From assembly GCA_040752355.1 (NCBI GenBank), contig JBFMHE010000011.1, positions 1 through 64,000 of the forward strand: a stretch of DNA of 64,000 nt, read 5' to 3'. A model generated the notes under the pieces. That model was not told the origin of the DNA, did not search any database, and saw only the letters and a program-made list of their open reading frames with translations. This document shows positions 5,629 to 60,814 of the stretch, piece after piece (position 1 is the first letter of the stretch; each line of letters begins with the position of its first letter). The DNA is from Nitrospirota bacterium. GTDB lineage: Bacteria; Nitrospirota; Thermodesulfovibrionia; Thermodesulfovibrionales; Dissulfurispiraceae. The position numbers and the translations under genes were made by a program.

Positions 5629-5696
5629 CGCACGCACCTCCTTACCGAATATGTATGATCCACCCTCCTCATTCCATTAGATGCTCTAAATGACTC

Positions 5697-10532: not shown

Positions 10533-10667
10533 AGGAATCGGGATGGTATGGTACGTGAGCGGCTTTTTTTGCCGGCAGTTCATGCCGGATGCATGAGTTG
10601 CCGGCAAAAACCTCGGAGGCAAACAGGGATGTTTGCCGAGAATGAGCGAATGTACCATACTATTCCT
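10533..10667. repeat. Multi-hairpin repeat element, family 1, copy 1
   Basis: Outer arms AGGAAT...GTATGGTAC (10533-10554) and GTACCATAC...ATTCCT (10652-10667) enclose three smaller hairpins. These are a perfect 12-bp stem at 10566-10577/10599-10610, an apical stem CATGC/GCATG around CGGAT, and GGCAAAC/GTTTGCC around AGGGAT (10618-10637). Unpaired words GAGCGGCTT, CCTCGGAG and GAGAATGAGCGAA are shared exactly with copy 2 at 35221-35353, while the stems differ. The element lies inside the exporter operon, antisense to it if read in the plus direction. Confidence 0.75.
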
Positions 10668-24829: not shown

Positions 24830-24871
24830 GGAAACTGTACAGTTTTCCGACACGGTGTCGGAAAACTGTAC
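24830..24871. promoter_or_regulatory. Palindromic activator site: three GGAAA(A)CTGTAC half-sites
   Basis: A 35-bp perfect palindrome (24837-24871, one-base centre, 17-bp arms GTACAGTTTTCCGACAC and complement) overlaps a further 14-bp palindrome AAACTGTACAGTTT (24832-24845). The unit GGAAA(A)CTGTAC therefore occurs three times in alternating orientation. It is centred about 86 bp upstream of the predicted sigma-54 start, a typical place for an NtrC-type activator such as PrsR. Confidence 0.75.
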
Positions 24872-24931
24872 GATTTAATAGGAATAGAGCAGGATAGTCC
24901 GGTACTGCCAATGCGTTTCACAGGGGAGAAT

Positions 24932-35189: not shown

Positions 35190-35220
35190 GGCCGGCGTGC
35201 TGCAAACGAGGAGCCGGAGG

Positions 35221-35353
35221 AGGAGCGAGGTGAGGCATTTGGAGCGGCTTGGGCAGCCCGGGCGAAGCCAGGATGGCGGAGCGGGCTGCCCCGCCTCGGA
35301 GCAAGGCGTGGATGCCTTGCGAGAATGAGCGAAAATGACTCGCCTCGCTCCTC
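35221..35353. repeat. Multi-hairpin repeat element, family 1, copy 2
   Basis: The outer arms (about 35221-35240 and 35333-35353) match at 17 of 20. The inner stems are GGGCAGCCCG/CGGGCTGCCC (35251-35260/35282-35291), GCC/GGC around AGGAT, and GCAAGGC/GCCTTGC around GTGGAT (35301-35320). The unpaired words GAGCGGCTT, GGAT, CCTCGGAG and GAGAATGAGCGAA are the same as in copy 1 at 10533-10667. It is located 22 bases after the ftsZ stop. Confidence 0.75.
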
Positions 35354-35375
35354 CGATCCCCTGCACGTGCTCTGC

Positions 35376-60634: not shown

Positions 60635-60814
60635 TGAGCAGGGGGGGCTATGCGGTTTTGAGGGGAATTCCTGGCTCTGGTGCAGCCCATAAAGGCGGAG
60701 CCTTTGGGGCGAACCACCAGTGCGGGGGTATCTACGAGGATCGAGTTCAACACCCTTTGCTCTGGAGCAAACGAAGAATAATTCCCCTCAAAACCGCATA
60801 GCCCCCCCTGCTCA
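60635..60814. repeat. Element with perfect 35-bp inverted arms between tupA and tupB (family 2)
   Basis: Arms 60635-60669 and 60780-60814 are exactly complementary over 35 bases. The 110-bp interior folds into a branched hairpin (CTGGTG/CACCAG enclosing AAAGGC-GGA-GCCTTT) and a second hairpin TTTGCTC-TG-GAGCAAA. No protein frame or target-site duplication is evident. It is unlike the family-1 elements in sequence but similar in plan. Confidence 0.8.

Follow-up and report, generated by a model that had tools for sequence, protein, structure and literature searches.

Small dispersed repeats of bacterial genomes are usually treated as decaying DNA parasites. Known examples (BOX, RUP, ERIC, Correia and BIME) resemble the element described here in being intergenic, 100-200 bp long, non-autonomous, strongly folded, present in dozens of copies and often bounded by terminal inverted repeats. 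BOX and RUP belong to the pneumococcus, are fewer in S. mitis and are very rare in other streptococci, while the effects of ERIC on transcripts are orientation-dependent (PMC3049150). Our element departs from all of these by junction words that barely vary and stems that covary fully in at least three phyla, by a strand-specific fold with a sharp boundary, by a single core that occurs with different terminal repeats or with none, by a strong antisense bias and by its CsrA-type loops. It shares with REP/BIME and their RAYT (Y1) the dispersed, strand-specific, intergenic hairpins, but is much larger and multi-branched, and Y1 is not required in carriers (genome G022). It shares with the CsrB/CsrC and RsmX/Y/Z decoy RNAs apical loops that carry GGA on hairpins which otherwise vary, but has dozens of mobile copies with only 2-3 sites each, keeps its three-way junction where csrA is missing, and shows no promoter or terminator. 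Covarying stems and conserved single-stranded words also recall the structured noncoding RNA classes of Rfam, none of which it matches. We consider it best filed among the small dispersed structured repeats, and not as a member of the MITE, REP or CsrB groups, because their defining features are unmet or unsettled; the MITE criteria of being short, non-coding and in many copies are fulfilled (a unit of ~125 bp, insertions of 168-179 bp, 49 copies in the host genome).

Two copies lie in the window, by which we mean the whole 64,000-nucleotide stretch of Nitrospirota DNA that was analysed. The original prediction placed them at 10533-10667 and 35221-35353, in the same orientation within minus-strand operons, and this held: both match one covariance model and both read on the + strand between minus-strand genes (ABC transporter ATPase and HlyD-type protein for copy 1, radical SAM and ftsZ for copy 2). 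Each consists of a closing helix, P1, and two hairpins, P2 and P3, separated by conserved words:

10540..10666, + strand: element copy 1, the selected unit (P1 plus three-way-junction core); covariance-model match 10542-10666, 88.6 bits, E 5.9e-18; MFE -72.1, z -9.1
10540..10556, + strand: copy 1, P1 5' arm (fold; inverted repeat I10)
10557..10565, + strand: copy 1, word GAGCGGCTT; GA opposite GA, then the junction GC and GG pairs, then a TT bulge
10566..10610, + strand: copy 1, hairpin P2, 20-bp stem with GGA in the apical loop (inverted repeat I5; fold)
10587-10590, + strand: copy 1, first GGAT, in the P2 apical loop (sequence)
10611..10618, + strand: copy 1, word CCTCGGAG (sequence)
10618..10637, + strand: copy 1, hairpin P3, apical region ACAGGGATGT (sequence)
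10627-10630, + strand: copy 1, second GGAT, in the P3 apical loop (sequence)
10638..10650, + strand: copy 1, word GAGAATGAGCGAA, the junction strand followed by GC and GA (sequence)
10650..10666, + strand: copy 1, P1 3' arm (fold)
35219..35354, + strand: element copy 2 with extended P1; covariance-model match 35226-35349, 128.7 bits, E 5.6e-27; inverted repeat I2; z -7.4
35219..35240, + strand: copy 2, P1 5' arm (inverted repeat)
35242..35250, + strand: copy 2, word GAGCGGCTT (sequence)
35251..35293, + strand: copy 2, hairpin P2, apical part GCC-AGGAT-GGC (fold)
35271-35274, + strand: copy 2, first GGAT, in the P2 apical loop (sequence)
35294..35301, + strand: copy 2, word CCTCGGAG (sequence)
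35301..35320, + strand: copy 2, hairpin P3, GCAAGGC-GTGGAT-GCCTTGC (fold)
35310-35313, + strand: copy 2, second GGAT, in the P3 apical loop (sequence)
35321..35333, + strand: copy 2, word GAGAATGAGCGAA (sequence)
35333..35354, + strand: copy 2, P1 3' arm (inverted repeat)

The remaining claims made from the two copies also held. Their shared words come in the predicted order (GAGCGGCTT, GGAT, CCTCGGAG, GGAT, GAGAATGAGCGAA), the stems between the words have changed and are still complementary, and the outer arms differ and pair. The inferred compensatory change, of the kind expected of a structured RNA or a DNA hairpin substrate, is supported by strong covariation both genome-wide and phylum-wide; words without covarying stems, which would have refuted it, did not occur. 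The absence of a named family was confirmed, as none of 4227 Rfam families reached its gathering score in the window and in 13 loci none gave a hit overlapping the element with E as high as 5. What had been missed is that ~20 bp of the outer arm belongs to the selected fold, that both GGAT words lie in apical loops, and that the element is mobile, with dozens of copies, an antisense orientation bias and CsrA-like loops.

On the + strand, none of 200 dinucleotide shuffles was as stable as either copy. A covariance model (R1) built from 14 copies, a search proposed with the original prediction, found only these two matches above noise in the window (third-best E 0.31) and 49 in the host genome. 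The 13-mer GAGAATGAGCGAA alone is not rare when 2 mismatches are allowed, but the genome contains 16 exact occurrences of the combined word pattern of the 3' half, compared with 0 for a reversed-pattern control.

The layout of the fold is 5'-P1-GA-GC-GG-Y-UU-[P2]-R-CC-UC-GGA-[P3]-GA-GA-AUGA-GC-GA-P1'-3'. P1 is a helix of ~20 bp that closes a junction of near-invariant words (GAGCGG, CCTCGGAG, CGAGAATGAGC) around P2 and P3. As GC pairs and GG pairs with CC, the three helices meet in a three-way junction with AUGA as the single linking strand. Twice, beside P1 and beside P3, GA faces GA in GA-rich internal loops, for which a sheared geometry is possible, although this is our inference.

Among 111 distinct relatives, 94.1% of cells were paired, as against 38-46% in slid controls, 35 of 41 pairs had changes on both sides, and the covariation score was 0.619 compared with 0.165 in shuffles, none of 500 of which reached it. 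The 51 Gemmatimonadetes and Latescibacterota copies, scored separately, gave 90.7% pairing and a covariation of 0.650. These alignments were fitted to the covariance model, which biases them toward the structure of that model. Covariation extends even to the near-invariant words: among 250 scored copies, the GG/CC junction pair is G-C 211 times and A-U 39 times, with no intermediate, and an extra A in AATGA(A)G accompanies the A-U type in 41 of 41. The signal is very strong for an undescribed bacterial repeat. In some host-genome copies the 3' strand of P2 contains a further hairpin (TCGGTA...TACCGA), or inserted sequence follows GAGAAT; RNAs tend to grow by extra helices and inserts of this kind.

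Short palindromic elements also appear to have been inserted within P2 at three loci (L159:275-421, L276:3115-3263 and L148:4920-5089). The one in L276 reads ACCCCACCTAACC...GGTTAGGTGGGGT, and the junction words are intact in L159 and L276 despite the insertions.

If a palindrome were constrained as double-stranded DNA, its G-C pairs would be lost to G.T and to A.C equally often. We therefore compared G.U with A.C mismatches along P1, with a scoring that is symmetric for the two and favours neither. The G.U:A.C counts were 73:18 at pairs 1-4, 176:10 at pairs 5-8, 70:12 at pairs 9-12, 60:10 at pairs 13-16 and 35:18 at pairs 17-20, and then 18:23, 6:11 and 3:8 past pair 20. Because the excess of G.U is limited to the ~20 bp of P1, it is the strand bearing the words that is selected, as a single strand, whether RNA or single-stranded DNA, and the outer palindrome is not selected. 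The ratio is high whatever the arrangement of the flanking genes (7.1 in antisense copies, 3.0 in sense copies). The Gemmatimonadetes and Latescibacterota copies gave 48:16 at pairs 5-20 and a reversed ratio, 3:19, at pairs 1-4; the reversal may come from arm anchoring, but this remains unresolved. That pairing is kept only in copies read in the sense direction can be rejected, as P1 pairing is independent of flanking-gene arrangement. One strand's fold is thus clearly selected across phyla, and other repeat families could be examined with the same orientation and strand tests.

The element is found in 31 of 60 close relatives, with a maximum of 58 copies, and in 52 of 296 genomes sampled across Nitrospirota. 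Named matches came from Thermodesulfovibrionales and other Nitrospirota, from Candidatus Latescibacterota and from one Gemmatimonadetes MAG, that is, from at least three phyla, the list being a lower bound. The Gemmatimonadetes MAG holds 59 copies spread over many contigs, and three Latescibacterota MAGs that were searched hold 3-14 each. Such numbers over many contigs make a stray contaminating contig unlikely, with the caveat that all of these are MAGs. Viral contigs gave 0 exact pattern matches. In our literature searches none of six sequence words of the element turned up in a relevant paper, and no comparable repeat or RNA of Nitrospirota proved to have been described.

Direct evidence for mobility comes from two elements of genome G012, for which the congeners G022 and G027 show precise empty sites, with clean gaps of 168 and 179 bp. 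One of these insertions falls between a stop codon and the ribosome-binding site of the next gene. A target-site duplication is not evident, the two empty sites showing at most 1-2 ambiguous bases. In 18 shared-site comparisons within the same genus, the orientation was opposite in 5, and at one site (L240:4849, L276 and L277) P1 was retained while the core was different in all three species. Ectopic gene conversion and recombination between P1 arms could explain such flips and swaps, a possibility that we only infer. Taken together, it is very likely that this is a mobile element of ~125 bases, with dozens of copies per genome, in which paired mutations have preserved the single-stranded fold although most of the sequence has diverged; that a mobile element with a selected single-strand fold exists is close to certain.

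Outer inverted repeats flank many copies and are of two types, TTAGAGC..CTAACRAAATGA in the host genome and CTAACCCAGATTATTCATAAA elsewhere; none were seen around other copies, including both in the window. The second type is also present in genomes without a detected core, so terminal repeats and core are separable. The window itself contains one lone half of the type that flanks many host-genome copies elsewhere:

5668..5689, + strand: lone terminal-inverted-repeat half CTCATTCCATTAGATGCTCTAA, between two genes, with no core beside it

At another locus, L294, left and right terminal repeats are joined and the entire core is missing. Genomes G034 and G047 have a terminal repeat TTTATGAATAATSYGGGTTA 8-12 times, with no core found, which represents a separate repeat family.

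The orientation of the copies is strongly biased. Between co-directional genes 119 copies are antisense and 43 sense (p 2e-9), the antisense:sense counts being 19:7 in the host genome, 34:20 in one genus and 66:16 in other Nitrospirota; the Gemmatimonadetes MAG, counted apart from these, gives 16:9. These are counts of copies, not of independent insertions, and the gene calls came from a simple codon model. The distance from antisense copies to a stop codon is short (median 20 nt). Across the family, neither strand has a U-run after the stem, and a scan restricted to consensus sequences found no promoter-like site at the two window copies. CsrA can be rejected as the cause of the bias, which is equal with and without GGA loops. 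We judge the effect of the replication strand too weak to cause it, by argument only and without measurement.

The two apical loops deserve particular attention. The SELEX consensus of CsrA is RUACARGGAUGU; its GGA sits in a hairpin loop, which in most cases has six bases and is closed by AC/GU pairs, and the CsrB repeats are CAGGA(U/A/C)G (PMC7652899). The P3 apical region of copy 1, ACAGGGATGT, matches the core of this consensus exactly. In the family of the host genome and in both other phyla, the P2 and P3 loops hold GGA on differing stems, in forms such as ACANGGAUGU, CC-AGGGAU-GG and CAGGA(U/A/C), and GGA is found in these loops in most genomes with csrA. In one genus, 64 of 88 copies have a site of the ACANGGAUGU type (free N), matching RUACARGGAUGU within a hairpin loop. 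In the sample of relatives csrA was found in 22 of 31 carriers and was absent from 9, and GGA in the P3 loop was seen in 20 of 21 genomes with csrA, versus 3 of 9 sampled without it. There are exceptions both ways: csrA was not found in the G009 assembly, where 14 of 15 P3 loops keep GGA, and GGA is missing from G048, which does have csrA. For four genomes the loops were entered manually by eye, many genomes contributed only a single copy, and the families are not independent; omitting G009 and G010 from the group without csrA would be post hoc, and no conclusion rests on it. Moreover, the genomes with neither csrA nor GGA loops belong to three families, so that the link with CsrA is confounded by phylogeny. 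In families without csrA the junction core is kept without GGA loops (G031, G040, G043, G053, G054), which makes CsrA an add-on and not the core function. Binding of CsrA by the loops is a good hypothesis that we would not yet bet on, being inferred without binding data; literature searches found no CsrA-binding mobile repeat. Were it correct, a mobile element would be tied, via its RNA, into a global post-transcriptional network, and lineages with and without csrA offer a natural comparison by which the idea can be tested.

In families f2 and f11, which lack csrA (e.g. L065 and L071), P2 carries instead a recurring GCCGATATTC...AAAGAGGC, suggesting another loop-specific constraint.

The means of mobilisation has not been identified. 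Clustering of 726 neighbouring proteins gave as largest clusters only ordinary operon genes, with no recurrent linked mobiliser or other gene and no REP-RAYT arrangement among these clusters. A transposase whose presence might follow copy number had been suggested in the original prediction; none was found linked, and neither Y1 transposase (Fisher p 0.59) nor reverse transcriptase tracks the presence of the element, in tests that count related genomes as separate. RVT_1, which a genome carrying a retroelement, group II intron or retron RNA would be expected to encode, is missing in 10 of 14 genomes that have at least 7 copies, including the host genome, G012, G022 and G027, and Y1 is absent from two copy-rich carriers, G022 (32 copies) and G031 (7). 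Resident reverse transcriptase and Y1 transposase are thus ruled out as requirements by copy-rich genomes that lack them. No autonomous relative was found beside the copies, and the terminal-repeat search recognised no transposase-bearing pair; a transposase acting on the outer repeats might still move some copies, though none was identified.

Our main reading, to which we give a probability of about 0.5, is that the element is mobile but non-autonomous and that its own strand, most likely as RNA, adopts a closed three-way junction. Its established parts are the fold and its conservation, the selected strand, the boundary at ~20 bp of P1, the precise insertions, the swapping and inversion of the core, and the antisense bias. 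The rest of the mechanism is inferred. The fold, and not the stem sequence, would keep the element propagating; its strand would act as RNA rather than single-stranded DNA; and an unidentified protein, acting in trans and required for copying or stability, may recognise the junction words. Where the host has CsrA, the two apical GGA loops might bind it, so that the element would serve as a dispersed ligand or decoy of CsrA, or its RNA would come under CsrA control. Sense insertions in operons would be weeded out, the fold being harmful inside mRNA. Against this reading stand the lack of a known transcript and of a promoter-like site, and the mostly antisense position of the copies, so that the route to RNA is unexplained; the indifference of P1 pairing to the flanking-gene arrangement also counts against it. 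RNA is nevertheless likely, and preferred over single-stranded DNA by about three to one, because G.U pairs are frequent, the extra helices are modular and the loops are of CsrA type; transcription itself is inferred.

The main rival, which remains possible, is a fold of single-stranded DNA, serving as the hairpin substrate of a transposase or recombinase like REP/RAYT, the ends of IS200/IS605 or integron attC sites. It would account for a strand-specific fold, for mobility, for inversion and core swapping at shared sites, and for pairing that does not depend on flanking genes. Against it are the copy-rich genomes without Y1 and the failure of Y1 to track presence, the lack of a gene family recurring as linked mobiliser, a G.U share of ~8% of P1 pairs, which is high for a DNA hairpin, and loops of CsrA type that would have no role in DNA. 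A strict CsrB/RsmZ-like family, existing to titrate CsrA, is unlikely. The two SELEX-type apical GGA loops, a third GGA in CCTCGGAG and the association with csrA speak for it, but the core persists without such loops in families lacking csrA, so CsrA binding cannot be its basic function, and no promoter or terminator was found. We regard as very unlikely an ordinary DNA-transposon MITE whose palindrome is merely its terminal inverted repeats, without strand-specific function. Many copies do have outer terminal repeats of a type also found without the core, and insertions are precise, but a double-stranded or cruciform constraint is strand-symmetric, whereas the excess of G.U over A.C is several-fold and confined to 20 bp of P1, and in three phyla the core words hardly vary, whether the terminal repeats differ or are lacking. 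A transcription terminator or cis-regulatory mRNA element, suggested by the closeness of antisense copies to stop codons, is equally improbable, since there is no U-run on either side, no conserved gene association, and a mostly antisense position relative to the operon. Retroposition of a SINE-like RNA by a reverse transcriptase resident in the genome would fit the RNA-like fold and the many dispersed copies, but is very improbable given the lack of RVT_1 in most copy-rich genomes.

Beyond the main reading of a mobile element folding as RNA, one might speculate that this is a new class of mobile structured RNA in Nitrospirota, Gemmatimonadota and Latescibacterota, a three-way-junction cassette that spreads without reverse transcriptase or Y1 and forms, in CsrA hosts, a genome-wide CsrA-binding swarm. 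We hold this bolder view to be no more than possible.

Other palindromic elements were observed in the same genomes. An intergenic palindrome of 22 bp, near-perfect and with a single nucleotide at its centre (ACTGTACAGTTTTCCGACAC G GTGTCGGAAAACTGTAC), lies at 24832-24876 of the window. Positions 60635-60814 hold a different element, whose 110-nt core is unrelated to that of the present one and is enclosed by a perfect inverted repeat of 35 bp, and a 95% identical copy of it (L081:1337-1480) adjoins a studied element. Finally, at L310:1338-1500 (G000:C14), a 28-bp palindrome surrounds a further 107-nt core and is followed by the same terminal-repeat half as is seen beside many copies of the studied element.
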